DNA of 64,000 bases from positions 1 through 64,000 of the forward strand of contig NZ_JAHCST010000031.1 in the NCBI RefSeq assembly GCF_018476525.1, written 5' to 3'. The stretch is from Acrocarpospora catenulata (GTDB lineage: Bacteria > Actinomycetota > Actinomycetes > Streptosporangiales > Streptosporangiaceae). Shown piece by piece: positions 37,144 to 60,485 of the stretch. Under the pieces are notes generated by a model. It was not told where the DNA came from. It did no database searches and saw nothing but the letters and a program-made list of their open reading frames with translations. Made by a program: the position numbers and the translations under genes. Every line of letters begins with the position of its first letter. Position 1 is the stretch's first letter.

Positions 37144-39900
37144 GTGAGCAAACGCACGAGTTCGTCGAAGGTAGCCGTTGTGGGCCTTGCCTGTCGGCTA
37201 CCTCAGGCCGATGGTCCGCCGGCGTTCTGGGACTTGTTGACCGGCGGAGTCGACGCGATCACCGAAAGGACCGGTGACGGAGGGCCGAAGTGGGCGGGAC
37301 GATTAGCGGACAAAGTGGCTTTTGACGCGACTTTCTTCGGACTCTCCCCACGAGAGGCCCGGTACACCGATCCCCAGCAGCGGATCATGCTCGAACTCGG
37401 CTGGGCGGCGCTGGAAGACGCCGGAATCGTCCCGGGTGCCCTTAAGGGGACGCCGACCGGCGTTTTCGTCGGTGCGATGGCCGACGACTACGCCTATCTG
37501 AGCCACCGCGCCGGGCACATCGGCCACCACTCGCTCACCGGAATCGGCCGCGGGATCATCGCCAACCGCCTCTCGTACTTCCTGGGCGTCAACGGGCCGA
37601 GTCTGACCGTCGACACCGGGCAGTCCTCATCGTTGACCGCCTTACACCTGGCATGCGAAAGCCTGCGGCGCGGTGAGAGCGAGATCGCCCTGGTGGGTGG
37701 GGTGAACCTCATCATGGCCGAGGAGAGCACCAGGATCGCCGAGGAGTTCGGCGGGCTGTCGGCCGACGGGCGATGCTTCACCTTCGACGCCCGCGCCAAC
37801 GGTTACGTGCGCGGTGAGGGCGGCGTCTGCGTCGTGCTCAAACGGTGGGAGGACGGCGACGACGCCTACGCCGTCATCAGCGGGACGGCGCTGAACAACG
37901 ACGGTGGCGGCGACTCGCTCACGGTGCCGCGCGGCGAAGCGCAGCAGGCGGTGATCCGGGCCGCTTGTCGTCGGGCCAGGGTGCGGCCGGCTGATGTGCA
38001 CTATGTGGAAGTGCACGGCACCGGCACGGCGGTCGGTGACCCGATCGAGGCGGCGGCGTTGGGGGCGGTGTTCGGCCCGGGCCGGGATTCGCCGTTGCTG
38101 GTGGGGTCGGTCAAGACGAACATCGGTCACCTGGAGGGCGCGGCCGGGCTGGCGGGTTTCCTGAAGGCGGTGCTTTCGCTGCGGCACCGGGTGGTTCCGC
38201 CGAGCCTGAACTTCGCCGAGCCCAACCCTGAGATCGACTTCGACGCCTGGCGCCTGCGGGTCGTCCAGGACAACACCACGCTGCCGGAGGGTGCGGTGGC
38301 GGGGGTCTCGTCGTTCGGAGTCGGCGGGACCAACTGTCATGTCGTGCTTTCCTCGGTCGAGCGAAGGGGCGACGCACCGCAGAACCCCCTTGAGGGACCG
38401 GTGCTGTGGCCGTTGTCGGGTAAGACGCCGGGGGCGGTCGGCGACCAGGCCCGGGTCCTGCGCGCGGAGCTTGTGGCCCGTCCCGAGCTCAGTCCCGCCG
38501 ACGTCGGCTTGTCGTTGGCGACGACCCGCACCGCCTTCCCCTATCGGACGGTGATCCGCGCGACCGGCCGGGCCGGGTTCCTGGAGGCTCTGGACACCCT
38601 CACCGGTCCGAACGTGGTCAGTGGCAAGGCCCGTGCCGAGGTGAAACCGGTCTTCGTGTTCCCTGGGCAAGGGACGCAATGGGTCGGCATGGGGACCGAA
38701 CTCCTTGGCACCTCACCGGTCTTCCGCGGACAGTACATCGCCTGCGCAGCGGCGTTGCGATCGCAGGTGACCTGGGATCCGTACAGCGTGCTCAACGATG
38801 AGGCCGCGCTCGCCCGCGTGGACGTCGTGCAGCCGGTGCTGTGGGCGTTCATGGTCTCGGCCGCCGCGCTTTGGCGTTCCTACGGTGTCGAGCCCGCGGC
38901 GGTCGTCGGTCACTCCCAGGGCGAGATCGCCGCGGCCACTGTGGCCGGCGCGTTGTCCATCGAGGATGGCGCGCGGGTCGTCGCCCTGCGCAGCAAGGTC
39001 ATCGCTACGAGGCTCGCCGGTCGCGGGAAGATGGCATCGGTCGCGATGTCCCTGGCGGAGCTGCGACCGTTGCTCCGGCCAGGAGTCTCGGTCGCTGCGG
39101 TGAACGGCCCCAAATCCGTCGTCGTGGCAGGTGAACCTGATCCGGTACGGCAGCTCGTGGACGAACTTTCGCGAGCCGGTGTCAGGGTCAAACTGATTGA
39201 TGTCGACTACGCCTCCCACACGGCACAGGTCGAACCGGTCATGGCGGAACTGGCCGAACTGCTCGCGCCGATACGACCACAGCGCCCTCGGATTCCCCTC
39301 CAGTCCACGGTGGACGGCGGCCAGGTGCTCGACGGCGACTACTGGGTGCGCAACCTGCGCCGGACCGTGGAGTTCGAGGCGGCGACGGACGCGCTGAAGG
39401 CCGCCGGGCACGAGGTCTTCCTGGAGATGAGCCCACATCCGGTGCTGACGCCCTCGATCGAGGGTGATGTCTCGGCGGTGGGCACGTTACGCCGTGACGA
39501 CGGAGGACTCGACAGGTTCCTGTTGTCGTTGGGGACCGCCTACGCCCATGGCGTCAGCGTGGACTGGCAGGCGGTGTTCGGTGCCGCGCGCCGCGTCCGG
39601 TTGCCGGGCTATGTCTTCCAGCGCCGGCGGTACTGGCTTGACGAGCCGGATGAAGCCGAGCGGCCGGCCGCCGTGGACATGGCAGGCATCGTCGCCGCCG
39701 AGATCGGCGCCGTGCTCGGCCATACCGACCTCGACCCCACCGCCACGTTCAAAGAACTCGGCGTCGACTCGGTCACCGCGACCGACCTGCGGGCCAGACT
39801 CGTCGCCGCGACCGGGCTTCCGCTGTCCGCCACGGTGATCTACAACCATCCGACTCCGGCGGCGTTGACGTCTCATCTGGACTCTCTGGCCGGCGAGTCG
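37144..39900 (+). other. PKS loading module: KSQ-AT-ACP
   Basis: The ketosynthase active site reads VDTGQSSS with Gln160 for Cys, the KSQ type that decarboxylates an extender on the ACP to make the starter. The AT has GHSQGE (Ser591) and YASH (689-692), both methylmalonyl-type, so the starter should be propionyl. The ACP phosphopantetheine site is Ser876 in ELGVDSVT. Confidence 0.9.
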
Positions 39901-42900
39901 CCGGAGTCGGCCCGGGTGAACCAGCGGCGGGTGGCCGGCGATGACGATCCCGTGGTGATCGTGGGAATGGCGTGCCGTCTGCCGGGTGGGGTGGACTCGC
40001 CGGCCGCGCTGTGGCGTCTCATGGACTCCGGTGCCGACGCGATCTCCGCGTTCCCGGCCGACCGTGGCTGGGATGTCGACGCGTTGTCGGCGTTGCCGCG
40101 GCGAGGCGGCTTCCTGGACGACGCGGCCGGGTTCGACAACGACTTCTTCGGGATCAGCCCACGTGAGGCGCTGGCCATGGACCCGCAGCAGCGAGTGCTG
40201 CTCGAGGTCGTCTGGGAGGCGATGGAGCAGGCAGGGATTCCGCCGTCGTCGCTGCGTGGCACCCGGACCGGTGTCTATCTCGGCGCGATGGCGCAGGACT
40301 ACGGCGCCCGGATGCACGAGGCGTCCGGCGATGCCGAAGGGTACACGCTGACGGGTACCTCGCCCAGCGTGCTGTCCGGCCGGGTCGCGTACACGCTGGG
40401 TCTGGAAGGACCCGCGATCACGGTGGACACCGCGTGTTCGTCGTCGCTGGTAGGCATGCACCTGGCCGTACAGGGGCTGCGGTCGGGGGAATGCTCGCTG
40501 GCGCTGGCGGGTGGTGTCACCGTCATGTCGACGCCGGGCATCTTCCAGGAGTTCGCCAAGCAGGGCGGCCTGTCCCCGGACGGGCGATGCAAGGCGTTCG
40601 CCGACGCCGCCGACGGCACGGGCTGGGCCGAGGGCGTCGGCGTGCTGGTCCTGGAACGGCTTTCCGACGCCCGCCGCAACGGCCATCAGGTGCTGGCGAT
40701 CCTGCGTGGCTCGGCCGTCAACTCCGACGGCGCGTCCAACGGGCTGACCGCACCGAACGGCCTCGCCCAGCAGCGGGTCATCGAACAGGCCCTGGACGAT
40801 GCCGGCCTGCGCGCCGCAGACATCGACGCGGTCGAGGCGCATGGCACCGGAACCCGTCTGGGCGACCCGATCGAAGCCGACGCCATCCTCGCGACCTACG
40901 GCCAGAACCGGACCACACCACTTCTCCTGGGATCACTGAAATCCGTCATCGGCCATGCCCAAGCGGCGGCCGGAGTCGCCGGCGTGATCAAGATGGTGCT
41001 GGCGATGCGACAGCAGACCCTGCCGCGCACCCTGCACATCGACGAGCCGTCCTCCCGAGTGGACTGGAGAAGTGGTCAGGTCGAGTTGCTGACCAGCAGC
41101 CGGCCATGGCCCGACAACGGTCACCCGATGCGGGCCGGCGTGTCGTCGTTCGGGATCAGCGGCACCAACGCGCACGTGATCATCGAGCAGGCTCCGCCAT
41201 CCGAGCCGACCGCTTCACCGGCCCCGGGCGAGCCCGGTTCGCCATCAGGTCCGGGCGAGCCCGGTTCGCCATCAGGTCCGGGCGAGCCCGGTTCGCCATC
41301 GAGTACGGCATCCGGGGCGGCACCGGCGGTGGTGCCTTGGGTGGTGTCCGGCAAGACCGAGGTTGCGCTCGGTGCCCAGATCGATCGGCTGGTGTCCTTC
41401 GTGGCCGAGACCGGTGCGGATCCGGTCGATGTCGGCTGTTCGCTGGTGACGGCGCGCTCGGAGTTCGCTCATCGGGCAGTGCTGCTGGCCACCGGCGACG
41501 GTGTGGCCGAGGCGGCACGTGGTGTCGCCGGGCCGCCGGGCGCGCTGGCGGTGCTGTTCGCGGGGCAGGGCGCGCAGCGGATCGGGATGGGCCGCGAGCT
41601 CGCCGCCCGGTTCCCCGTCTTCGCCCGCGCGTTGGACGAGGTTTTCGCGGGGCTGGAGCAGTCACCGCGTGAGGTGATGTTCGGTGCCGACTCGGGACTG
41701 CTGGACCGCACCGAGTTCGCCCAGTCGGCGCTTTTCGCGATCGAGGTCGCACTCTTCCGCCTGCTGGAGTCGTGGGGTGTGACGCCGGACCTGCTGGTGG
41801 GGCACTCGATCGGTGAGATCGCCGCCGCGCATGTAGCCGGTGTGCTGTCGCTGGATGATGCCTGCACGCTGGTCGCGGCCCGGGGCCGGTTGATGCAGCG
41901 TCTGCCCGAGGGCGGGGCGATGGTGTCGGTCCTGGCCGGTGCGGCGGAGGTCGAGCCGCTGCTGGAGGACGGAGCCGTCATCGCCGCGGTGAACGGGCCG
42001 TCCTCCGTCGTGATCGCCGGGGACGAGGACGCTATCCTGCGCACCGCCGCGCACTTCGGCAAGGCCACCCGCCTGCGGGTGAGCCACGCGTTCCACTCGC
42101 CGCTGATGGAGCCGATGCTGGCGGAGTTCCGGGAGGTCGTCGAGGGGCTGACCTTCGGCGAGCCGAGGACGACGATCATCTCTACCGTGACCGGCGAGGT
42201 GGTCGACGCCGCGTACCTGTGTTCAGCGGAGTACTGGGTGGACCATGTGGTGCGTCCGGTGCGTTTCGCCGCGGCGGTGCAGGCTGCGGGCTCGGCAGGG
42301 GCCAGGGTGTTTCTGGAGCTGGGGCCGGACGGCGGGTTGTCGGCGCTCGTTCACCAGAACCTTTCGGTTCGCCAGGACCCGCACGAGCCGACGGCTGCCT
42401 TTCCCGTTCTGCGAAAGGACCGCGGTGAGGAGGCGGCGGCGCTGACCGCGGCCGCCCGGTTGTACGTGCACGGCGTGCCGGTGCGGTGGCGGGAGCTGTT
42501 CCCGGCCGCTCGCCGGGTGGATCTGCCGACCTACGCGTTCCAGCGGGTGCGGTACTGGCCCAAGCTCTCGCCGACCGCGGGCGACGTCACCTCCGCCGGG
42601 CTGGACCGGCCGCGTCACCCGCTGCTCGCCGCGGGCACGGAGTTGCCCGACACCGGCGGATTCCTGTTCACCGGTCTGGTCTCGACCGCCGCCCATCCCT
42701 GGCTGTCCGATCATGTGGTGGCCGGACAGGTTCTGTTCCCCGGCACTGCCTTCGTCGAACTGGCCGTCCAGGCCGGCGGCGAGGTCGGCTGCGGCCTGCT
42801 GGAGGAGCTCACGCTCACCTCTCCGCTCGTACTGCCCGAGCGGGGAGGCGTTCAGTTGCGGGTGGCGCTCGGCGCCCCCGGCGAGGGCGGCAGCCGGACG

Positions 42901-45900
42901 GTCGGCGTGTACTCCCGTCCGGAGGGTGAACCGGACGCGCCGTGGGTTCAGCACGCCACCGGTGTGCTCGCCTCCGCCACACCGACGAGCGTCCCTGACG
43001 CCGGCCTGCGGGAGTGGCCCCCCGCGGACGCCGTCCCGGTGGACCTCGACGGCTTCTACGACCGGCGGGCGGTGGCGGGATTCTCCTACGGCCCCGCGTT
43101 CCAGGGAGTGCGCGCCGTCTGGCGTACCGAACGGGAGGTGTTCGCCGAAGTCGCCCTGCCCGAAGCCGTCGCCGCCGACGCGGGCTCCTACGGACTGCAT
43201 CCGGCCCTGCTCGACGCCGCGCTGCAGGTGGCATCACTGGCCGGGCTCGACGAGGCCGAGGGCGGACTGCTGCCCTTCGCCTGGACCGGGGTGTCCCTGC
43301 ACGCATCCGGCGCGGCCGCGCTCCGGGTCCGCATCAGCAGGGTCGGCCCGGAGGCGATCACGCTGGTCGTGGCCGATGCCGGGGGCGTGGTGGCCGCGGT
43401 GCGCTCCCTCACGCTCCGCGCCGCGCGGCCTGCGGCACGCACCGGCGGTGGACCGCTGCTGCGGCTGGACTGGCCGCCGGCGGCGGCATCCGGGAACGGA
43501 GACCATCCGGCCAGGCGGTGGTCGGTGCTCGGCTCCGACGGATGGGGTCTCGTCGCGGCCCTACGCGAAGCCGGGCAGGTGGCGGACATCGCGTGGGAGA
43601 TGGAGCCGACCGCGGACGTGACCCTCGTGCATGGGGCGGACGTGACCTTGGTGCCGGTCCCGGTCCCCACTGGGGACGACGTTCCGGCCGAGGTGCGGTC
43701 GGTGACCTCGGCGGTGCTGGCTCGGCTGCGGGAGGCCGGGCGCGACGAGCACGCCAACCGCTTGGTGGTTTTCGTGACTTCAGGCGCGGTCGCGGTGGCC
43801 ACCGAAACCGCGGCCGACCCTGTCGCGGCGGCGGTATGGGGTCTGGTGCGTTCGGCACAGGTGGAGCACCCGGGGCGGTTCGTCCTGGTGGACCTTGATC
43901 GTGATCAGGTGGATGCCGGTCGGGTGGACGGCCGGATGCTGGTCGCGGCGCTGGATTCCGGCGAGCCGCAGTCGGCGGTGCGTGACGGGCTGCTGCGGGT
44001 GCCGCGCCTGGTCAGGCTCGACGACGACCGCTCTCAGACCGGGCCGGCTGCTGGCACCGTCCCGGGTGCCGGCAGGACGACGTGGCATGCCGACGGCACG
44101 GTGCTGGTCACCGGTGGCCTGAGCGGGGTGGGCGCGCTGGTCGCGCGTCATCTGGTGGCCGAGCATGGCGTGTCTCACCTGGCTTTGGTGTGTCGTCGTG
44201 GCCTGGATACCGAGGGCGCCGCGGAGCTGGTGTCGGAGCTGAGGGCCCTGGGTGCCGAGGTCATGGTCGAGGCTTGCGATGTGGCCGATCGTGACCGCCT
44301 GGCCGGGCTGATCGCGGCGATCCCACCGGAGCACCCGCTCACCGGGGTGGTGCATGCCGCGGGGGTGCTCGATGACGGCCTGATCGAAACGCTGACACCC
44401 GAGCGGATCGAGGCCGTGCTGCGGCCGAAGGTGGACGGCGCCTGGCACCTGCACGAGCTCACCCGCGACCTGGGCCTGACCGCGTTCGTGGTGTTCTCCT
44501 CGGTGTCGGCGACGCTCGGCAACGGCGGCCAGGCGAGTTACACCACGGCGAACGCCTTCCTCGACGCTCTCGTACGGCAGCGCGCCGTCCAGGGGCTGGC
44601 GGGCCTGTCGGTCGCGTGGGGCCCGTGGCAGCAGGACACCGGGATGACCAGCGCCCTCACCGAGACGGACATGCGGCGCATGGCCCGCGCCGGGCTGCGA
44701 CCGATCTCCGCCGAGCAGGGACTCGCCTGGTTCGACGCCGCGACGGTCAGCCCGGAACCGGTGGTCGTGGCGGCACGGCTGGACCTGGCCGCGCTGCGGG
44801 CGCAGGGCCGTGTCCCCGCGGTCTTCCAGGCACTGGTCCCCGCTGCCATGCGCCAAGCCGCCGCCACCCCCGCCGCCTCCGACGCCCTGGGCGGCCTGTC
44901 GGGACAGGCGCTGGGTGAGGCGGTGTCCCAGCTGGTGCTCACTCAGGTGGCCGCCGTACTGGGGCACGCCTCGGCGAACGCGATTTCGCCGGACCTGACC
45001 TTCCAGGACCTCGGCCTGGACTCCCTCACCTCGGTGGAGCTGCGCAACCGGTTGATCGAGGCAGCACGGTTGCGCCTGCCCGCCACGCTGGTGTTCGATC
45101 ACCCCACCCCGGCGGCGGTCGTCCGTTTCATCCGCGGGCAACTCGAGGGCGTCGAGGCCGCGGCGCCGGTGCGGGTCACGGCTCCGGTCACCGGCGACCC
45201 GATTGTCATCGTCGGCATGGCCTGCCGCTATCCGGGCGGGGTCACCTCACCGGAGCAGCTGTGGGAGCTGGTCACCGAGGGCAGAGACGCCATTTCCGGT
45301 TTTCCGGCCGACCGTGGCTGGGAGGTCGCGGACGCGTCTTTCGCTCGGGCGGGCGGATTCCTGTACGACGCGGCCGAGTTCGACGCGCAGTTCTTCGGGA
45401 TCTCGCCCCGCGAGGCGCTCGCGATCGACGCCCAGCAGCGACTGCTGCTGGAGGTCTCCTGGGAGGCCGTCGAACGGGCAGGCATCGACCCGCTCACCCT
45501 GAAAGGCAGCCCGACCGGCGTCTTCGCCGGGATGATGTACCACGACTACCCGTCAACGGGCGACGGAGTACCGGACGCGCTGCGCGGGATCGTCGTCAAC
45601 GGGAGCACGGGCAGCATCACCTCCGGCCGGGTGTCGTACACCCTCGGCCTGGAGGGTCCGGCGGTGACGGTGGACACGGCGTGTTCGTCGTCGCTGGTGG
45701 CGTTGCATCTGGCGGCGCAGGCGCTGCGCTCGGGCGAGTGCTCGCTGGCGCTTGCCGGTGGTGTGACGGTGATGGCCACACCCAACACCTTTATCGACTT
45801 CTCCCGCCAGGGCGGTCTGAGCTCTGACGGCCGGTGCAAGGCGTTCTCCGACAGCGCCGACGGGGTGGGCTGGTCGGAGGGCGTGGGTGTGCTGGTGCTG

Positions 45901-48900
45901 GAGCGGTTGTCGGACGCTCAGCGCAACGGGCATCAGGTGCTGGCGGTCGTGCGCGGGTCGGCGATCAACCAGGACGGGGCGTCCAACGGATTGACGGCGC
46001 CGAACGGTCCGTCCCAGCAGCGGGTGATCCGGCAGGCGCTGTCCGGGGCCGGGTTGTCCTACGCGGATGTCGACGTGGTCGAGGCGCACGGTACCGGCAC
46101 GACCCTGGGCGACCCGATCGAAGCGCAGGCCCTGCTGGCCACCTACGGGCAGGACCGGCCGCAGGACCGGCCCGTGCTGCTGGGGTCGATCAAGTCGAAC
46201 ATCGGTCACAGCCAGGCCGCGGCGGGTGTCGCCGGTGTGATCAAGATGGTCATGGCGATGCGCGCGGGTGTGGTGCCGCGCACGTTGCACATGAACGCAC
46301 CGTCCTCGCACGTGAACTGGAACGAGGGCGCGGTCGAACTGGTGACCGCGCCGGTGGAGTGGCCGCAGACCGACCATTCGCGCCGGGCCGCTGTGTCGTC
46401 GTTCGGGATCAGCGGCACCAACGCCCACGTGATCATCGAGCAGGGGCCGGAGGTTCCGGAAAGTCGGACTGAGGCTCGTGCTGGGGACTGGGCACCGGGT
46501 ACTGGGGCTCGTGCTGAGGACCGGGCTGTTGACCGGGATCCGGGTGCGGAGCTGGTGCCGGGTGCCGGGATGGCGCCGGGTGCCGGGATGGTGCCGGTGG
46601 CGGGTGTCGCGGTGGAGCCAGCGGTGGATCCGGGGCTGGTTCCGGGGCTGGTTCCGGGGCTGGTTCCGGGGCTGGTTCCGGGGCTGGTTCCGGTGGTGGT
46701 GTCGGGTCGGTCGGCTGGGGCGTTGCGGGCGCAGGCCGGGCGGCTGGTCGCCCATCTGGAGGGTGCTGCTGGTCTGGGTCTGGCCGATGTGGGGTTCTCG
46801 CTGGCCACGACGCGGTCGGTGTTTGAGCATCGGGCGGTGGTGCTGGCCGGGGACCGTGATGGTCTGCTGGCCGGGCTGGGCGCGTTGGCGGAGGACCGGC
46901 CGGGTGCGGGTGTGGTGCGGGCGGTGGCCGGGGCGGAGCCGCAGCTGGCGGTGCTGTTCACCGGTCAGGGCAGTCAGCGGGCGGGGATGGGCCGGGAGCT
47001 GTATGACCGGTTCCCGGTGTTCGCGCGGGCATTGGATGAGGTGATCGCCGGGCTTGATCCGCTGCTGGATGAGTCGCTGCGGGAGGTGCTGTTCGCCGAG
47101 CCGGATTCGGCCGGGGCGGAGGCGCTGGATCAGACCGGATGGGCACAGCCGGCGCTGTTCGCGGTGGAGACCGCGCTGTTCCGGCTGGTCGAGTCCTGGG
47201 GGGTGCGCCCGGATGTACTGGCCGGCCACTCGATCGGGGAGATCACGGCGGCGCATGTGGCCGGGGTGCTGTCGCTGGGCGATGCGTGTGCGCTGGTGGC
47301 GGCGCGGGCGCGGTTGATGCAGGCGCTTCCCGCCGGTGGGGCGATGGTGGCAGTGGCGGCGTCCGAGGATGCGGTCGCCGAGCTGCTGGCCGGGCGTGAG
47401 GACGAGGTGTCGGTCGCGGCGGTCAACGGTCCGGCCTCGGTGGTGCTCTCCGGGGTGGAGGGGCCGGTCCTTGAGGTGGCGGCGGTGCTTTCTGAGCGCG
47501 GGGTGCGGACGCGGCGGTTGCGGGTGTCGCACGCGTTCCATTCACCGTTGATGGATCCGATGCTGGCCGACTTCCGCGCGATCGCCGGGACACTCACCTA
47601 CAACCCGCCGCGAATCCCGATCGTGTCCACTTTGACCGGGGAGCAGGCCACGGCCGAGCGGTTGTGCTCGCCGGACTACTGGGTGGACCAGGTGCGTGGC
47701 GCGGTCCGCTTCGCCGACGGTGTCCGTACGCTGCACGCGCAGGGCGTGCGCGCGTATCTGGAGCTGGGCCCCGACGGGGTACTGAGCGCGATGGCCCAGG
47801 ACACCCTCGCCACGGAGACCGATACGAACGTGTTGGTGCCGGTGCTGCGCGGGGACCGGGACGAGCAGAGCGCGGTGATGACGGCGCTGGCCGGACTGCA
47901 CGTGCACGGGGTCCCGCTCGATTGGCGTGCGATGTTCCCCGGTGCCCGGCGGGTGGAGCTGCCCACGTATGCCTTCCAGAAGGAGCGGTTCTGGCCAAGC
48001 GGTCGGCGGGGCGGGGACGCGCGAGGTCTGGGGCTGGGCGCGGTGCTCCACCCGTTGCTCGGGGCCGTGGTGGTGTCGCCGGAGTCAGGCGGAGTGGTCC
48101 TGACCGGACGGCTGTCGGCGTCGGAGCAGCCGTGGATGGGTGATTACGAGGTTCTGGGGCGGGCGCTGCTGCCGGGGGCGGCGTTGGTGGAGTTGGTGGT
48201 GCGTGCGGGTGATGAGGTCGGCTGCGCGGTGGTGGAGGAGCTGGCGTCGCAGGCGCCGTTGGTGCTGCCGGAGTCCGGTGGGGTTCAGGTCCAGGTGGTG
48301 GTCGATGGCGTGGATGAGGCCGGCGGGCGCGCGGTCCGGGTGTACTCCCGGGCGGACGAGCACGATGGCGGCGACTGGATGCTGCACGCCCGGGGAGTGC
48401 TGGCGGAGCGGTCGGTGGAGCCGGGGTTCGATCTGGCGCAGTGGCCGCCGGCGGGGGCGAGCGAGCTGGAGGTGGCGGGGGCCTACGAGTGGCTGGCCGA
48501 GGCCGGTTACGGTTACGGACCGGCGTTTCAGGCGTTACGCGCGGCGTGGCGGGGTGCGGGCGGGGACCTGTACGCCGAGGTCGTCCTGGATGACCGGGCG
48601 GCTGCGGAGGCGGGCCGGTTTGGGGTGCATCCGGCGCTGCTGGACGCGGCGATGCAGGTGTCACTGATCGATCCTTCGGGCGTGGCCGATGGCGGGCGGG
48701 CGGTGTTGCCGTCGATGTGGCGGCAGGTGGCGCTGCACGCGGCCGGTGCTTCGATGCTGCGGGTACGGGTGCGGCGTTCGGGCGAGCACACACTGACCTT
48801 GGAGGCGGCCGATGAGAACGGCCGGCCGGTGTTGTCGGCGGAGTCGGTGGTGACAGGCCCGGTGCCGACGGGGCAGCTGGGCGTGGCGTGGGAGCAGTCC

Positions 48901-51900
48901 CTGTTCCAGGTGGCGTGGAACCCGATCGAGATGCCCGCGGCCGCCGCTGCGGCACCGGTGAGGGAATGGCTCGCTGACGCGGCTGTCGGCGATGCCGAGT
49001 CGGTCGTGGTGCTGGAGTGTGCGGGACGGCCGGCCGGTGAGGTGCCGGAGGCGATGCGTTCGGTGGTCGGCGGCGTGCTTGAGGCGTTGCAGGCGTGGCT
49101 GGAGCGGGAGGATCCGGGTTCGCCGCCTTTGGTGGTGGTGACCAGAGGCGCGGTGGCGGTGGGTGCGGGTGCGGGGGTGGATGTGGTGGTCGCGCCGGTG
49201 TGGGGGCTGGTGCGGGCGGCGCAGGCTGAGCATCCGGGACGGTTCGTGCTGCTGGATCTGGAGGAGGGCCAGGAACGGGACGCGGCGGTGGCTGTGGCGG
49301 TGGCCTGCGGCGAACCGGAGCTGGCGATGCGCTCGGGGGCGTTCCTGGTGCCCCGGCTGGTCAGGATGGCACGGTCTGAGTCGTCTGCCGGCGTGGTCGC
49401 CGACGGCTCGGGGCCGGATCTGGGCTCCGCTGAGCGGTCCGGCGGCTCGGTTGAGCCGGCCGCGGGGACGGTGCTGGTGACGGGTGGCACGGGCGGGTTG
49501 GGGGCGTTGCTGGCGCGGCATTTGGTGGCCGAGCATGGGGTGCGCCATCTGCTGCTGGTCAGCCGGCGCGGCCTGGGCGCTCCGGGTGCGCTGGAGCTGC
49601 GGGCGGAGCTGATCGCACACGGGGCCGAGGTCACGATCGCCGCGTGTGACGTAGGGAATCGGGATCAGGTGGCGGCGTTGCTGGCGCGGGTTCCGGCCGA
49701 GCGTCCATTGACCGCGGTGGTTCATGCGGCGGGTGTGCTGGATGACGGGACGATCACGTCGCTGTCGAAGGAGCGGCTGGACGCCGTGCTGCGGCCCAAG
49801 GCGGATGCGGCGTGGCATTTGCACGAGCTGACGCGGGATCTGCCGTTGGCGATGTTCGTGCTGGTGTCGTCGGCCAGTGGCCTGGTGCTGGCGGCGGGCC
49901 AGGGCAACTATGTGGCGGCCAATGGGTTCTTGGACGCGCTGGCGGCCTATCGGCGGTCGCAAGGGCTGGTGGCGACGTCGCTGGCGTACGGGCTGTGGGA
50001 TGTGGACACCGGGATGGGCTCGGAGTTGTCCGACGCCGGCCGGGACCGGCTGGCCCGGCAGGGGCTGTCGGGGTTGTCCGTGGCCGAAGGGCTGCGGCTG
50101 TTCGATCTGAGCCTGCGCACGGATGCGGCGATGACCGTGCCGCTGCGCGTGGACCTGGAAGTGCTGCGGGGCCGCGGCGATCAGGTGCCGACGTTGTTGC
50201 GGGCGTTGGTGCCGGCGGCGCGGGTCCGTGCGGGCGCCGGTGGGGGTGAACGCCGGCCCCCGCGAAGCAAGGAGGCCTTGGCTGAGTTGGTACGCCACCA
50301 GATCGCGGCCGTCCTCGGCCATGCGGACGGTGCCGCCATCCGTGGTGACCGCGCCTTCAAGGACCTGGGCTTCACCTCACTCACCACTGTGGAGTTGCGC
50401 AACGTCCTGGCGAAACGCATCGGTCTGGCGCTACCCGCGACCATGGTGTTCGACCATCCGACGGCTGATGAGCTGATCACCTATCTCTGGTCGCGGATCG
50501 AAGGCGCCGCTCCGGAGGTAAGTCGGCCTCAGGCGCCTCAGATAGGGGCCGACCACGACGACCCGGTCGCGATTGTCGGTATGGCGTGCCGTTTTCCCGG
50601 TGGGATCGACACTCCTGAACAACTGTGGCGGTTGCTCGCCGATGGAGGTGAGGCGCTGTCCTCTTTCCCGGAGGACCGCGGCTGGGATCTGGCGACCTTG
50701 GTGAGCCGCAGTGCCACCGCATCCGGCGGGTTCCTCGACGGAGTCGCCGACTTCGACCCGGGATTCTTCGGGATCAACCACCGCGAGGCCCTGGCGATGG
50801 ACCCCCAGCAGCGACTGCTGCTGGAGACCTCGTGGGAGGCACTCGAACGAGCCGGGATCGTGCCCTCGACCTTGCGTGGCGCCGACACGGGCGTGTTCAT
50901 CGGCACCAACGGCCAGGACTACCCGGCACTGTTGGCCCAGTCCGCAGACGACTTCGGTGGCTACGCCGCCATCGGCAGCGCGGCGAGCGTGGCGTCCGGG
51001 CGGCTCTCCTACATCTACGGCTTCACCGGTCCGGCGCTCACCGTGGACACCGCGTGTTCCTCGTCGCTGGTCGCCCTGCATCTGGCCGCCCGGTCACTCC
51101 GGTCGGGAGAGTGCTCGCTCGCCCTGGTCGGCGGTATCACCGTGATGACGACGCCAGGCTTGTTCGTCGAGTTCAGCCGGCAGGGAGGGCTGTCCGGCGA
51201 CGGACGTTGCAAGGCTTTCGCCGACGCGGCCGACGGCACAGGGTGGGCCGAAGGCGCGGGCATGCTGGTCGTCGAGCGGCTGTCGGACGCGCGCGCGAAC
51301 GGCCATGAGGTGTTGGCGGTGCTCCGGGGCAGTGCCGTCAACCAGGACGGCGCCTCCAACGGGCTCACCGCACCGAACGGCGTCGCGCAGCAACGTGTCA
51401 TTCGCCAGGCGTTGGCCGCCGGCGGCCTGTCGGTGGCCGATGTGGACGTTGTGGAGGCACACGGCACCGGAACCAGGCTGGGCGACCCGATCGAGGCCGG
51501 CGCGTTGCTGGCGACCTACGGGCAGGAGCGGGACCGGCCGTTGTGGCTCGGTTCGGTGAAGTCGAACCTGGGGCACACCCAGGCGGCCGCGGGTGTGGCA
51601 GGCGTGGTGAAGCTGATCCTCGCCATGCGGCACGGGCTTGTTCCGCGCACGCTCCATGTGGACAAGCCTTCGTCTCAGGTGGACTGGTCGGCTGGTTCGG
51701 TCAGGCTGGCGACCGATGCGGTGCCGTGGGTGGGTAGCGGGCGTCCGCGACGCGGCGCGGTCTCCGGCTTCGGAGTCAGTGGGACCAACGCACACGTCAT
51801 TCTTGAAGAAGGCGACCAGTCCATCGAAGGCGAACAGCCCGGAAATCCGTCAGGTCCGGGGATGCCGCCTTGGTTGTTGTCCGGGCGCACCGCCGATGCC

Positions 51901-54741
51901 CTTGCCGCGCAGGCGGAACGCCTCCTGGCGGCCGCCCCCGACGCGCGTGTGGCTCGACCGCTCGCGGTTTCCCGCACGCACTTCGAGCACCGCGCGGCGG
52001 TACTGGACGGCGACCTCGACGCCCTCGCCGCTCTCGCGAGGGGCGAAGACCATGAGTCGGTCGTCCGTGGTGTGGTCTCGAAGCCGGTGGTGCCGACGAT
52101 CGTGTTCGCCGGCGCGGCCGCGCGTACCGAACTGGCCCGTGAGCTGGACCGGTTCCCGGTGTTCGCGGCGGCGCTGGCCGAGATCGGCGGCCGGTTCGGG
52201 GAGGAGAGCGGTTTCGCGTTCGAGGTGGCGTTGTTCAGGTTGCTGGCGTCCTGGGGAGTGCGGGCGGACGTCCGCGGCCATTCGGGGGGCGAGGTCGCCG
52301 CCGCGCATGTGGCCGGGGTGTTGTCGCTGGACGACGCGTACGAACTGGTCACCGCCAAGGCCGGGGAGCATGGTCTCGACGACTACCGGGTCCGGCCGTT
52401 CGGGCAGGACGAGGTCGTCGTCGAACCGGGCACCTGCGGTTCACTGTCCGGCCTGGTCAACGCACTGGCAGGACTCCATGTGCGCGGCGTCGCGGTGGAC
52501 TGGGCAGCCGTGATCCCGGGCGGGCGGTACGCCGTGCCCACATATGCCTTCCAACGGCAGCGGTTCTGGCCGCAGGTGGCCCACGCCCTGCCTCCCGGCC
52601 CCAGCACGGCCGATGCCCCGGCCGAGCCGCTGTCGGCGGTGGATCTCGTCCGGACCGAGGTGGCCAGGGCCCTCGGCCTGCCTGATATGCAGGCGGTGGC
52701 GCCGGATCGTGAGTTCTCCCAGCTCGGCCTGGACTCGTTGGCCCTGATCGACCTGCGTGCCAGGCTGCGTGCCCGCACCGGCAAGAAGATCGAAGCGAGC
52801 GCGGTGTTCCGGCACCCGACCTCCGCGGCTCTCGCCCGCTATCTGGACGAACTCGACGAGGGGCCGCAGGCCCAGCCGGGCGTGGACGGCCGGATGGTGT
52901 GGGTGTTCCCGGGTCAGGGGGCGCAGTGGCCGGGCATGGGGGCGCAACTGCTGCAGGAGTCGCCGGTGTTCGCCCGCCGGATGGCGGAGTGCGCGGCGGC
53001 GTTGGAGCCGTTGGTGGGCTGGTCGCTGCTGGATGTGGTCCGCCAGGTGGAGGGTGCTCCGGGGCTGGATCGGGTGGATGTGGTCCAGCCGGTGTCGTTC
53101 GCGGTGATGGTGTCGTTGGCAGCCGTATGGGAATCGCTCGGCCTGCGCCCGGACGCGGTGGTGGGCCATTCCCAGGGCGAGATCGCCGCCGCGGTCGTGG
53201 CAGGCGGGCTGTCGTTGCCCGATGGCGCCCGGGTGGTGGCCCTGCGCAGCCGCCTGATCGCCGAGCGGTTGTCCGGGCGGGGAATGATGCTGTCGGTGCT
53301 GGCTCCGGCGGAGCAGATTCGCGGGCTGATCGCCGATGCCGGTCTGCTGGATCGGATCTCGATCGCGGCGGTCAACGGGCCCAGGGTGGTGACGGTGGCC
53401 GGTGATCCGGAGGCCTTGCGGGTGCTGGAGCGGCGGTTGTCGGCCGATGGGGTGATGCGCTGGCAGCTGGCCGGAGCGGACTTCGCCGCGCACTCGCCGC
53501 AGGTCGAGGGGCTCCGGGACGAGCTGTTGGCCGATCTGGCCGAGATGGCGCCGCGTACGGCGCGGGTGCCGATGTTGTCGACGGCGACCGGGCAATGGCT
53601 GGACGGCTCCGAGCTGGACTCCGGCTACTGGTACGAGAACGTACGGCGGACGGTGGAGTTCGCGCCGGCGATCGAGCGGTTGCTGGACGAGCGATACCGG
53701 GCGTTCGTCGAGGTCGGCCCGCATCCGTTGCTGACGCTGGGGATCGAGCAGGCGGTGGAGGAGGCGGGGGTCGTCGCCGTGGTGGCCGGGACGTTGCGTT
53801 CCGGCGAGGGCGGGCTTGATCGGGTGCTGGCCGCGGCGGCCGAGCTGTTCGTCCGCGGGGTCGCGGTGGACACCGCGCCTAGCGCGCCACAGAGCCCGCC
53901 GGACGTCATCGCGCGCCTGCACCGGCAGTCGGTCGACGCCGGCAGGTTGGACCAGGCGGACGCATTGCTGCGCGGGGTGGCCGAAGTGCGCGAGAAGTCG
54001 GCCGAGCCGCCGGCCCTCCCGCTGACACCGTTGCGGGACAGCGGAACCGGGCGCCGGCTGGTCTGCGTCGCGCCCATCGTTCCCACCACCGGCGAGCATG
54101 TCTACCATGGCCTGGCCACCGCCCTTGGCGGACAGTGGGATGTCAGCGTGGTCACGCCTGGCGGGTTCACCGCCGGCGAGCCGTTGCCCAGCTCCCGGAC
54201 CGCGTTGATCGAGCAACTGGCGGCCGCGGTCGGGGACCGCACCGCGGCGGGCCCGCTTGTCCTGCTCGGGATATCTTCCGGCGGGTTGCTCGCCCACGAG
54301 GTCGCCGCCTGGCTTGACGACCGCGGCCTTGCCGTCGACGCAGTCGTCCTGCTGGATACCCACCTGCTCGACTCGAGATCCACTGAGGTGTTGCGGCCCA
54401 GGCTGTGGCCGGCGTTGCATGCCCGGGAAGCGGTGGTCGACGGGCTCGACTGGATCCGGTTGTCGGCCACCTCCTGGTATCTGGACCTGTTGTCGTCGTG
54501 GCGTCCTCGGCCGACGCGAGTGCCTTCGCTGCTGGTGCGCGCGTCCGCGCCGTTGGGCACCGTGCACGACGACGACTGGCGGCCGACGCTGCCCGGGATG
54601 ACCGATGTCATCGACGGCCCCGGCGACCATCTGTCGATGGTCGAGCAGCACGTCATGGAGACCGGTGGCCGGGTGGCGGACTGGCTCGAACGCACGATGT
54701 CGGACAAGAACCCGCGTGAGGGAGAACGAGATGCACTATGA
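37144..54741 (+). CDS. Modular type I polyketide synthase, complete assembly line (loading module, three extension modules, TE)
   Basis: A 5865-residue synthase. Domain order by active-site reading: KSQ (Gln160), AT (Ser591, YASH), ACP (Ser876); KS (Cys1098), AT (Ser1555, HAFH), DH (His1857, Asp2024), KR (Tyr2466, LDD), ACP (Ser2627); KS (Cys2847), AT (Ser3363, HAFH), DH with Tyr3668 instead of His, KR (Tyr4256, LDD), ACP (Ser4412); KS (Cys4638), truncated AT (Ser5047), ACP (Ser5198), second AT (Ser5343, FAAH), TE (Ser5711, Asp5738, His5829). A KSQ start, no N-terminal docking region and a C-terminal TE make it self-contained. GTG start with GGAGAG upstream. Predicted to build a tetraketide from one methylmalonyl-derived propionyl starter. 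The gene overlaps the next one by 11 bp. The pathway is not one I can name. Confidence 0.95.
39946..45190 (+). other. PKS module 1: KS-AT-DH-KR-ACP
   Basis: KS about 935-1345 (Cys1098), AT about 1468-1770 with GHSIGE (Ser1555) and HAFH (1648-1651), malonyl-type. DH about 1825-2090 with an intact HxxxGxxxxP motif (His1857) and Asp2024. KR about 2120-2500 with LDD (2409-2411), B-type, and Tyr2466. ACP Ser2627. Expected outcome: malonyl extension reduced to an alpha,beta-alkene. Confidence 0.88.
41227..41301 (+). repeat. 27-bp tandem repeat in KS1-AT1 linker
   Basis: A 27-bp unit coding GEPGSPSGP occurs two full times plus a 21-bp partial copy, in frame. It lengthens a flexible Pro/Gly/Ser linker between ketosynthase and acyltransferase of module 1. 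Copies are almost identical at DNA level, so length may vary between strains or be misassembled. Confidence 0.9.
45196..50520 (+). other. PKS module 2: KS-AT-DH(inactive)-KR-ACP
   Basis: KS about 2685-3100 (Cys2847), AT about 3269-3580 with GHSIGE (Ser3363) and HAFH (3463-3466), malonyl-type. The DH fold is present (about 3636-3900, Asp3834 kept) but the catalytic His is replaced by Tyr3668 ([13 protein letters not shown]). KR about 4108-4290 is B-type with Tyr4256. ACP Ser4412. Expected outcome: a beta-hydroxyl is kept. Confidence 0.88.
46630..46689 (+). repeat. 12-bp tandem repeat in KS2-AT2 linker
   Basis: Five identical copies of CCGGGGCTGGTT code PGLV five times (residues 3163-3182). 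Upstream lies a looser PGAGM repeat. The repeats are in frame and lie in the linker between the module 2 KS and AT. Confidence 0.9.
50560..54741 (+). other. PKS module 3: KS-AT(truncated)-ACP-AT-TE
   Basis: KS about 4473-4890 (Cys4638) is intact. The AT after it covers only about 4983-5085: it keeps RGHSGGE (Ser5047) but lacks the part that carries the HAFH/YASH specificity region, then passes straight into the post-AT linker. ACP Ser5198 follows. A full AT comes next (about 5251-5560; GHSQGE with Ser5343; FAAH at 5447-5450), then a pre-TE linker and TE (about 5635-5850; GISSGG with Ser5711). No reductive domain, so a beta-keto group is expected. Confidence 0.88.
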
Positions 54742-56272
54742 GCGCCTGAGTGAGTCCGTGTGGATCGCCGGTGACGGAACCTCCCGCAACGCGGCGTACG
54801 TTCGGGGTGACATGAGCGGAGGGATGCTCGTCGGCACTCTCGACAGCGCGGACGAACTGCTCGATTACGGCGAGGGCGCGGCGCAGGTGGTGGTGCTCAC
54901 CGACACCGACTCCGGGCAGCACATCCCGAACAGGGCCACGACACTCACCTCGGTGGCGACGGCGACCGCGCTCGCCCGTTGCCCGCTACTCGAGGGCGTC
55001 GAGGTGCAGCGGGGCTCTCCCCTCCACGCCTATCTCGGGAGATCCCGGCGCACGCACGGGATCGCGGCGCGGAGACTGAGACCTGATCACACCTTCAGCG
55101 GTGAGATCGACCTCAAACTCGGCGACACCCGTGTCGAGGTGCTGGACATCGGGCGCGCCTACAGCGCCGCCGACACGGTCGTCTGGCTTCCTGACGAGGC
55201 GGTGCTGATCACCGGCGCCGTCGTCGTCAACGGTGTGCATCCCGCGTCGTGGTCGGGTTCGATCGAGCGATGGCGTGCGGCTTGCACCGAGCTCGCGGCG
55301 CTCCGGCCGGCTCTGGTGGTTCCCGGGTACGGGCAGGTCACCGACATCACCGGGATCATCGATCTGCGGGACTATCTCGAGCACCTCCACAGCGAGGCGG
55401 AAGTGCGCTACCGCAAGGGGATGCCGGTCGAGGAAGCCGCGACCGAACTACCACTCGGCCGCTGGGCGGGGTGGGCCTGCCGGGAGAACCTCGCGATCAC
55501 CTTGGCCACCGTCTACAAGTCCCTGGGAGACAGCACCGACCGCACGGTCACCGGCGTGCTGACCACCGCCGCCGAAATCGCCGAGGGCATCCGCCGACGG
55601 CCTCGGATCGCCCCCATCGCCCCCGGTGAGCGTGACCAGGAAACACTGGACGCGTTAAGCCTCACCAAAGGGGAGAACTCGATCTTCGAGCTGCACAGCG
55701 CGAACATACCGAACGTCATCACCACGCTCGTGCGGCACACCAAGCTGTTTCACGAGTCCGTGCCCATCGCCCGTGGCGTGATCACCGGCGTCCTGCCGCC
55801 ACGCCACCGCGAACTGGCGATCCTGCGCGGCGCGTGGGCGTGTTCGGCGATCTACCAGTGGAATCACCACTACCAGGTCGCCCTCGGCGTCGGCCTCACC
55901 CCAGGAGAGATCGACCTCGTCTCCCGGGACGTCTCCCTCGGGCCATGGACCCGGCACGAGCGGGCGGTGCTGACGGCTGTGGACGAACTGCACACCGAGT
56001 CAGTGGTTTCCGACCACACCTGGGAGACCCTGTCGGAAACCTACGACGAACGTGAACTGATCGAACTCATCACCCTGATCGGGGAGTACCACAAGATCTC
56101 CTTCCAGCTCAACAGCTGGGGTGTCCCCCTCGAACCGTGGATGGGCCCTTACCGCATCCCCTCCGGCTGGCACACCGCCCACCACAGCCGACCCGCTCTT
56201 GGCGCGGGTCAGCGCGGCGAAGAGGTCGAGGAAGGCGAGGAAGTGGCCGCCCTCGCGGCGCAGGAGCACTGA
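54731..56272 (+). CDS. Degenerate metallo-beta-lactamase-fold/carboxymuconolactone-decarboxylase-like fusion protein
   Basis: A 513-residue two-domain protein. Residues about 1-225 follow the metallo-beta-lactamase fold, but every metal position is altered: the HxHxDH region reads TDTDSG (57-62), GPAHT-type reads GRAYS (141-145), TGD reads TGA (161-163) and PGHG reads PGYG (198-201). Residues about 320-505 are an AhpD/CMD-like helical domain ([21 protein letters not shown]), in which the usual EWxxH reads QWNHH (376-380). The gene starts 11 bp inside the end of the synthase gene behind GGAG, so the two are translationally coupled. It probably shapes or releases the polyketide without metal hydrolysis; this is inference. 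A Glu-rich tail ends the protein. Confidence 0.8.
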
Positions 56273-58695: not shown

Positions 58696-59820
58696 ATGAC
58701 GCGCAAGGTCCGGAGCATCGGCGTGGAGGGATACACCTCCATCCGGAAGGCCGATGTTCAACTGGGGGACGTCACGGTGCTGATCGGAGCCAACGGCGCG
58801 GGCAAGAGCAACTTCATCGCGGCGGTGGAACTCCTGGGCAGAATCGTCGACCGTGAGCTGGGTCTGGAGGTCGGGCTCCGGGGGGGCGCGCAATCCTTGC
58901 TGCATGCCGGGGCCAAGGGAACAAGCAGCATCGTTCTCCAGATTCAGGCCGCCACCAACAATGATTTGACGAATGGCTATGCGGCGGTGCTGGTTCCCGC
59001 AGCGGACGACAGGTTGATCTTCGAAGCCGAACAAATATCTTTTCAGGCCCCCAAACATCAGCATCCATGGACCGCCATGCTGGGGAGCGGCCATGCAGAA
59101 TCCCTGTTGCACAAGACCCAGGGTGACGCCAAGAAGGTGGCCAGGCACGTTATCGACATCCTGGAAGGGTGCAGGGTCTTCCATTTCCAGGACACCAGCA
59201 GGAACGCTCCGGTAAAACAACTGGGCTACGCCTCGGGTCAGGATAGGCTCCGGCCGGACGCGGGGAACCTGGCCGCGTTTCTCCTATATCTGCGCGAGAA
59301 TCACCCGCACCACTATGAGCAGATCAGACGAACCGTCCAGGGCATGGCCCCGTTCTTCCGGGATTTCGTCCTGGCCGAGAACGCCACCGGCCGGATCAGC
59401 CTACGCTGGAGCCAGCAGAACGTGGACGCGGTGTTTCCCGCGGAGGCACTCTCGGACGGAACACTCCGCTACATCTGCCTGACCACGTTGCTCCTGCAAC
59501 CCAATCCCCCGGCCTTGCTCGCCCTGGATGAGCCTGAGCTCGGGCTGCACCCATTCGCCATCGTGCAACTGGCCGAGATGATCAGATCCGCCGCCACCCG
59601 CTGCCAGGTCGTCATCGCCACCCAGTCCGTAACCCTGCTCAACCAGTTCGAGCTAAACGATGTCGTGATCGCCGAGCGCGAAGAGGGGGCAACGGTGCTG
59701 CGCAGGCCCGACCACGATCATCTACAGGAGTGGCTGGACCACTACTCGTTGGCCGACCTGTGGGAGAAGAACGTGCTGGGCGGCCGCCCCACGCCGGAAC
59801 GGAACATTCATCCGAGGTGA
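58696..59820 (+). CDS. OLD-like AAA ATPase of a putative defence pair
   Basis: A 374-residue AAA_21-type ATPase related to the ATPase part of OLD/RecF-like proteins. Walker A is IGANGAGKSN (Lys37), an ABC-like signature region is PAEALSDGTLRYI and Walker B is LLALDEPELGLHP, followed by VIATQSVTLLNQF. It lacks the C-terminal TOPRIM nuclease of OLD; the following gene encodes a TOPRIM-like protein instead. Overlaps that gene by 4 bp (GTGA). The pair resembles two-gene anti-phage systems of ATPase plus TOPRIM design such as PARIS. Codon use is less GC-biased than in neighbouring genes. Confidence 0.88.
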   Translation: MTRKVRSIGVEGYTSIRKADVQLGDVTVLIGANGAGKSNFIAAVELLGRIVDRELGLEVGLRGGAQSLLHAGAKGTSSIVLQIQAATNNDLTNGYAAVLVPAADDRLIFEAEQISFQAPKHQHPWTAMLGSGHAESLLHKTQGDAKKVARHVIDILEGCRVFHFQDTSRNAPVKQLGYASGQDRLRPDAGNLAAFLLYLRENHPHHYEQIRRTVQGMAPFFRDFVLAENATGRISLRWSQQNVDAVFPAEALSDGTLRYICLTTLLLQPNPPALLALDEPELGLHPFAIVQLAEMIRSAATRCQVVIATQSVTLLNQFELNDVVIAEREEGATVLRRPDHDHLQEWLDHYSLADLWEKNVLGGRPTPERNIHPR

Positions 59821-60485
59821 CCTACACGCGAATCGTCTGCGTTCTGGTCGAGGGCCAGACCGAGGAGGTCATCGTCCGTGACGTGATTCAGCCAGAGATC
59901 GGCGGCGGTATATGGCTGCAGCCGGTCATCTTGAAAACATCGCGTCCGGCCGGCAAAGTCCCTGGCCGGGGTGGCGTTTCCCTATGGAAGAAGATCGAGA
60001 ATGATCTGAAACTCCTCCTCCGCAATCCGGCATTCGATCTTGTCACCACACTCATTGACTATTATGCGTTGCCCGGCGATACTCCCGGCATGGCAACCCG
60101 CCCGTCCGGGTCACCATATGATCGCGTACGCCATGTCGAAGCGGCCATTCACGAGGCAATGGGCCGTAATCCCCGACTACTTCCCCATCTGGCACTACAT
60201 GAGACCGAGGCCTGGGTGCTGGCCGCGGCCGAACGACTCGCCACCCTTACCGACGTGCCGGAACTCGCGAAAGAACTCGCCGCCGTGGTCGCAGCCGCCG
60301 GCGGACCCGAGCTGGTTAACGACGGAATTTCGACTGCGCCGTCCAAGCGGATAATCAAACTGTATCCCGCCTATCGAAAGACGGTGGACGGGCCGCTGGC
60401 CATAGCTGATCATGGCCTCAGCGCCATTCGCCAGGTTTGTCCCCATATGGATAAGTGGCTCACGCGAATCTTGGAAGTGGGGTAG
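59817..60485 (+). CDS. DUF4276 protein (TOPRIM-like effector candidate)
   Basis: A 222-residue DUF4276-family protein. It begins with VLVEGQTEE (Glu12, Glu16), the pattern of a TOPRIM-like acidic site, followed by TTLIDYYALPGD, which may supply the second acidic residues, and HETEAW near residue 122. It starts with GTG coupled to the ATPase stop. In systems of this design the ATPase senses a phage trigger and the TOPRIM-like protein acts as nuclease. The defence role is inferred from the gene pairing. Confidence 0.85.
   Translation: MTYTRIVCVLVEGQTEEVIVRDVIQPEIGGGIWLQPVILKTSRPAGKVPGRGGVSLWKKIENDLKLLLRNPAFDLVTTLIDYYALPGDTPGMATRPSGSPYDRVRHVEAAIHEAMGRNPRLLPHLALHETEAWVLAAAERLATLTDVPELAKELAAVVAAAGGPELVNDGISTAPSKRIIKLYPAYRKTVDGPLAIADHGLSAIRQVCPHMDKWLTRILEVG

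Follow-up and report, generated by a model that had tools for sequence, protein, structure and literature searches.

Which AT loads the last ACP of a PKS whose terminal module has only a fragment of an AT in the normal place and a whole AT behind the ACP? This question is raised by a modular type I PKS gene of Acrocarpospora catenulata, located in the window (the whole stretch of 64,000 nucleotides analysed here) and consisting of a single uninterrupted open frame of 5865 codons (Table 1). We estimate at about 75% the probability that its last module is a cis-AT terminal module whose choice of extender was changed by displacement of the AT, the displaced AT probably loading the ACP that precedes it.

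Domain organization of the PKS

Pfam matches place the domains of the protein in the order KSQ-AT-ACP / KS-AT-DH-KR-ACP / KS-AT-DH-KR-ACP / KS-AT remnant-ACP-AT-TE. The loading KS carries DTGQSSS, which we take to be the mark of KSQ, and is therefore called so here. In the terminal module (translation of 50560-54738), KS matches cover residues 2-244 and 252-367 and the ACP match covers residues 696-762, followed by the one complete Acyl_transf_1 match at 780-1102 (profile positions 1-318 of 319) and by Thioesterase at 1166-1366; in the numbering of the protein, the displaced AT spans 5252-5574 and the TE 5638-5838. Acyl_transf_1 matches two stretches of this module, and the coordinates given are those of the best stretch. 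No full AT was detected ahead of the ACP when the domain profiles were run over the terminal module, in agreement with the first-pass annotation, which had described a KS-AT(fragment)-ACP-AT-TE order with a complete AT (nucleophile Ser5343) between ACP and TE. The gap between the Pfam matches of ACP3 and of the displaced AT is 17 residues in the window. ATs of the other three units are near-complete (profile positions 1-317, 3-317 and 3-317 of 319) and lie between KS and ACP, whereas a catalytically stripped remnant is all that occupies this position in the terminal module. The order KS-AT remnant-ACP-AT-TE also ends the orthologous PKS in a genome of another genus, assembled as a single contig (G359).

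KS3, ACP3 and the TE retain the motifs that we take to be catalytic, with the roles presumed for them. The TE (PF00975, E 1.4e-15) is a C-terminal alpha/beta hydrolase domain with GISSGG, DTH and GDH, presumably the Ser-Asp-His motifs of a type I PKS thioesterase. Pfam finds no reductive domain, and no KR, in the terminal module. With KS, AT and ACP covalently joined in each module, and a complete AT on the chain in every one, the PKS belongs to the cis-AT type, and not to the trans-AT type, which has no complete AT on the chain.

Table 1. Positions in the window of the PKS gene and of the parts of its terminal module.
Feature	Position	Strand	Basis
Modular type I PKS gene, 5865 aa	37144..54741	+	ORF list, Pfam
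KS, terminal module, catalytic motifs intact	50563..51660	+	Pfam PF00109 + PF02801; motif roles presumed
KS-AT linker of terminal module, kept	51841..52044	+	alignment, omega; limits by eye
AT remnant, keeps GHSGGE (52276-52293, Ser5047)	52045..52428	+	motifs, alignment, omega; limits by eye
Post-AT linker including [12 protein letters not shown] (52534-52569), kept	52429..52617	+	limits by eye
ACP, terminal module	52645..52845	+	Pfam PF00550
Displaced complete AT; GHSQGE 53164-53181 (Ser5343)	52897..53865	+	Pfam PF00698 1-318/319
[13 protein letters not shown], within displaced AT	53455-53493	+	motif position
VRGVAVD, last residues common to donor module	53851..53871	+	blastn, motif position
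Thioesterase domain, GISSGG within 54265-54285	54055..54657	+	Pfam PF00975

The remnant was aligned with 11 other KS-AT regions (two from the window, seven from Acrocarpospora and two from Streptomyces). Its GQGxQ strand is replaced by FAGAAA, a gap of 29 alignment columns precedes the nucleophile region, and nothing remains of the part that runs from the conserved Arg to the end of HAFH/YASH (the catalytic His region). Both the loss of the HAFH/YASH region and the survival of the nucleophile motif, GHSGGE, at Ser5047 had been noticed in the first reading of the sequence. The remnant is preserved on both flanks, with the KS-AT linker on one side and, on the other, [12 protein letters not shown] as the post-AT motif. 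Among the ATs compared, the remnant is closest in sequence to malonyl-type ones. An AlphaFold2 model of the KS-linker-remnant-post-AT region (12 alignment rows) had a mean pLDDT of 46, with the KS poor too, and was unusable.

Probable source of the displaced AT

A giant PKS cluster in this genome contains one AT (G000:C149:5681-6670) with 86% identity to the displaced AT, and the counterparts of that AT in two genomes of the same genus (G001 and G003) reach 87%; among the matches listed, identity to other ATs is 70% or less. The giant-cluster copy in G359 shows 85% identity. A tree built from 34 ATs pairs the two displaced ATs with each other (100/95) and places the giant-cluster AT of G359 beside them (99/88); the two displaced and four giant-cluster ATs form a six-member clade (100/100) characterized by FAAH. 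At the DNA level, homology to the donor in G359 covers linker and AT (1249 bp at 83%) and starts just after the ACP, while homology of the window to the donor module ends at 53871 (blastn). Of the 13 ATs read from C149:1-73000, one belongs to the FAAH type, and the donor AT is part of a canonical KS-AT-DH-KR-ACP module, unlike the displaced AT. These relationships suggest that the displaced AT originated from a single AT in the giant PKS cluster of this lineage, and we infer the direction and order of events. Meijiemycin-related polyene-polyol clusters of Acrocarpospora are named in the accessible part of PMC8944477; the giant-cluster contigs presumably represent such a cluster, whose PKS would be the probable donor given the 86-87% identity.

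Substrate of the displaced AT

The displaced AT has FAAH in place of YASH/HAFH and MRW in place of RXR, with six residues between them (MRW(X)6FAAH), and retains GHSQGE and RVDVVQ. FAAH and MRW occur together in 6 of 64 AT rows (a scan in which at least one place is counted twice), and these six are exactly the clade of displaced and giant-cluster ATs. M-x-W at the RXR position was found in none of the 58 other rows, seven of which give no usable reading (two remnants, three without a pattern match and two caught at the wrong place).

In the part of PMC4207774 available to us, MXW(X)5YASH marks methoxymalonyl-ACP ATs, and MXW is proposed for ACP-bound extenders generally. Like the concanamycin-type methoxymalonyl-ACP ATs and ZmaA-AT treated there, the displaced AT has a hydrophobic MXW where RXR would be expected and xAAH instead of YASH (ZmaA-AT having GAAH), and its genome contains fkb-type genes; it differs from ATs for ACP-bound extenders by having six residues instead of five between MXW and FAAH, by motif residues unlike the published ones, and by keeping the Q of GHSQG, and its own substrate is a predicted one. 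That Q is listed in the same text for methylmalonyl-CoA ATs, FkbA methoxymalonyl ATs having a bulky hydrophobic residue there.

Genes for an ACP-bound extender are available in both genomes. An fkbG-K-like set (FkbH, acyl-CoA dehydrogenase, ACP and 3-hydroxyacyl-CoA dehydrogenase (3HCDH) genes) lies beside the giant PKS in the genome of the window (L091 3664-7713, G000:C149) and in G359 (L092); an O-methyltransferase gene adjoins the former on the other strand, and the set in G359 is the same. A search of the window's contig found no FkbH, therefore an ACP-bound extender would need another cluster. Crotonyl-CoA carboxylase/reductase was not found above the cut-off in the genome of the window or in a more distant one (G031), and was found once each in G001, G003 and G359; ethylmalonyl as extender is weakly disfavoured by the result for the window's genome.

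The main alternative to the preferred reading is that the displaced AT works with methylmalonyl-CoA, or some other CoA-bound unit, as its substrate, in which case no cross-cluster precursor is needed and the two readings differ in substrate only. This is favoured by the kept GHSQGE and RVDVVQ, by the YASH-type AT in the loading module of the same PKS, and by antiSMASH predictions of methylmalonate for two of the three FAAH ATs of Amycolatopsis lexingtonensis described in the portion of PMC8944477 available. In that text methoxymalonate is predicted for one of the three, which favours the preferred reading. Conversely, the presence of FAAH and MRW, not YASH and RXR, in all six clade members and the fkbG-K-like genes adjoining the donor cluster argue against it. 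Motifs of methoxymalonyl ATs are poorly defined, according to the available text of PMC7489565. Considering this, the six-residue spacing and the two kept motifs, we therefore give about even odds to methoxymalonyl or hydroxymalonyl, bound to a separate ACP and made by the giant-cluster fkbG-K-like genes, as the substrate of the displaced AT, and chances somewhat short of even to methylmalonyl-CoA. We propose, tentatively, that an AT suited to an ACP-bound extender was copied from a second assembly line and functions behind the ACP, with the old AT decaying, and that this PKS depends on methoxymalonyl-ACP from the other cluster.

Proposed arrival of the AT between ACP and TE

Identity between the terminal modules of the window and of G359 ranges by domain from 84% in the AT part of the remnant to 94% in the ACP. 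G359 has about 92 more residues of KS-AT linker ahead of its displaced AT, which are missing from the window, and a short repeat is seen by eye at the junction. A distant homologue in G031 (TE 46% identical) ends in KS-AT-ACP-TE with a full AT, an order that we take as the older state.

The present arrangement might instead be the stump of an extra terminal module, i.e., a former KS-AT-ACP-KS-AT-ACP-TE from which the last KS and ACP were lost. Only the origin would change, present function being the same as in the preferred reading. The KS-AT linker of the transferred segment retained in G359, which starts where a KS would have ended, fits such a history, but the linker ahead of the TE resembles, by eye, the linker directly after the ACP in the canonical homologue of G031, and therefore nothing shows a former second ACP or KS. 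We regard this origin as rather doubtful.

Selection on the terminal module

Nei-Gojobori omega values, computed pairwise between the window and G359, are 0.30 for KS3, 0.19 for ACP3, 0.32 for the TE and 0.23 for the linker ahead of it, 0.29 for the KS-AT linker (bootstrap 0.10-0.78), 0.32 for the post-AT linker (0.09-0.97) and 0.38 for the displaced AT (0.24-0.59). Domains outside the terminal module range from 0.17 to 0.42. The AT part of the remnant has an omega of 0.79 (0.38-1.91), a value with a wide interval that is based on 34 changes. Its 24:10 changes differ from the 138:155 of the pooled rest of the module (omega 0.31; Fisher p 0.011), while the comparison with the displaced AT alone gives p 0.065, with overlapping bootstrap intervals. 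This contrast suggests that the remnant evolves almost neutrally and that the displaced AT is under constraint.

Each of the remaining ACPs is paired with a near-full-length AT (3 of 3 in the window and 6 of 6 in G359), and the displaced AT is therefore the only complete AT left for the last ACP. Domain searches, the G359 orthologue, the selection contrast and the AT and ACP counts thus all support a dead AT in the normal place and a complete one after the ACP. They also bear on the hypothesis that the module is decaying or that the displaced AT plays a different role, for example in supplying other modules, in editing, or in release alongside the TE. An odd position adjoining the TE, and a window copy without the KS-AT linker that G359 keeps, would be in line with this; however, the omega values of KS, ACP, displaced AT and TE (0.19-0.38 between the two genera), the preserved catalytic motifs, and the ATs that the other ACPs have of their own make it improbable.

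Authenticity and distribution of the rearrangement

The genome of the window is a draft of 181 contigs, and therefore the question of an artefact mattered. PKS repeats are prone to mis-joins in assemblies, but an assembly or sequencing artefact can be dismissed, as the same order is found in the single-contig G359 (which also contradicts the sequencing error that the first-pass annotation had named as a possible refutation) and as the displaced AT differs by 14% from the nearest copy found in the genome and is therefore too different for a simple collapse. The order of the terminal module is not an assembly artefact, and the rearrangement is real and common to two genera.

Searches with the TE, which detect this TE type only and from which KS-ACP-AT-TE modules with another TE would escape, gave matches in 3 of 341 genomes of the family at E 1e-40 (the window's genome, G359 and G031). 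In the genus of G359, matches at 1e-20 were found in 6 of 16 genomes, G359 itself at 88% and the next at 38%. An even draw of 394 genomes of the class, searched at 1e-45, returned a single match, the window itself, and evidently missed G359 and G031. At five mapped loci (L009-L013) out of six from a scan of genome contigs, both the ACP-AT-TE order and the TE match are absent. Among plasmids, 754 records match, six of them with one place covering 80% or more; those matches listed that reach the TE have spans longer than an ACP-AT-TE order needs, as expected for AT-ACP-TE.

The assembly line is longer in G359, where two abutting frames encode a loading unit and five full modules before the terminal one, vs two full modules in the window. 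This difference in extension modules (37144-50560 vs G359 C1:7358655-7394771) could be accounted for by natural module loss or by collapse of the draft assembly; close homology resumes at 46667. The AT of module 1 (41536-42483) forms a long branch in the AT tree, with at most 61% identity to any other row, and the KS preceding it is 92% identical to G359. The gene directly downstream of the PKS (54605-56272) encodes a carboxymuconolactone-decarboxylase domain; its matches to metallo-beta-lactamase-fold hydrolases are weak and fall below the cut-off, and the 90% DNA alignment with G359 extends to 56191. Further downstream, an AAA ATPase and DUF4276 pair (58696-60482) matches HEC-01, a candidate defence system of PADLOC (A, E 3e-139; B, E 4.7e-67).

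A proposed mechanism, and its place among known modules

Under the preferred reading, in which displacement changed the extender, a module of the giant cluster would have supplied an AT, together with its KS-AT linker, that ended up between ACP and TE. The resident malonyl-type AT would have lost its catalytic parts and drifted, the flanking linkers, KS, ACP and TE staying constrained (a constraint seen for two genomes). We consider it highly likely that the displaced AT loads the ACP lying N-terminal to it, either in cis or between the two chains of the homodimer. Condensation by KS3 would join the incoming chain to the loaded unit, and release by the TE would give a product that is beta-keto, because no KR was found in the terminal module, and probably alpha-substituted. 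Methoxymalonyl supplied from the giant cluster would mean that the two clusters share a precursor.

Canonical cis-AT terminal modules include those of the DEBS and pikromycin type. With the canonical KS-AT-ACP-TE of G031, the module of the window shares intact motifs and the order of KS, linkers, ACP and TE; it differs in that the resident AT is a remnant and a complete AT follows the ACP. Trans-AT (AT-less) modules have a KS, a linker remnant and an ACP loaded by an AT from elsewhere. The terminal module likewise has a KS, a linker remnant and an ACP that would be loaded by an AT lying elsewhere, and the displaced AT in the window is without KS-AT linker, like a discrete AT. In contrast to trans-AT systems, however, this AT is on the same polypeptide and groups with cis-AT domains, and the other modules are cis-AT.

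The first-pass annotation knew of no characterised synthase with this order, and its statement holds to the extent that an AT between ACP and TE is undescribed in the titles and abstract openings that a phrase search of the open-access literature found. If our reading is true, KS-ACP-AT-TE would be a working module order, not found in the open-access literature searched.

Swapping ATs is a main way of altering polyketides, and in engineering the new AT is usually put at the site of the old one. Nature seems here to change extender choice in another way, by adding an AT at another site and letting the old one rot while the linkers are kept. The two diverged copies, with and without the KS-AT linker, offer a ready comparison for finding which features an AT requires to function behind an ACP. 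If the methoxymalonyl reading is true, one cluster would supply a building block to another.
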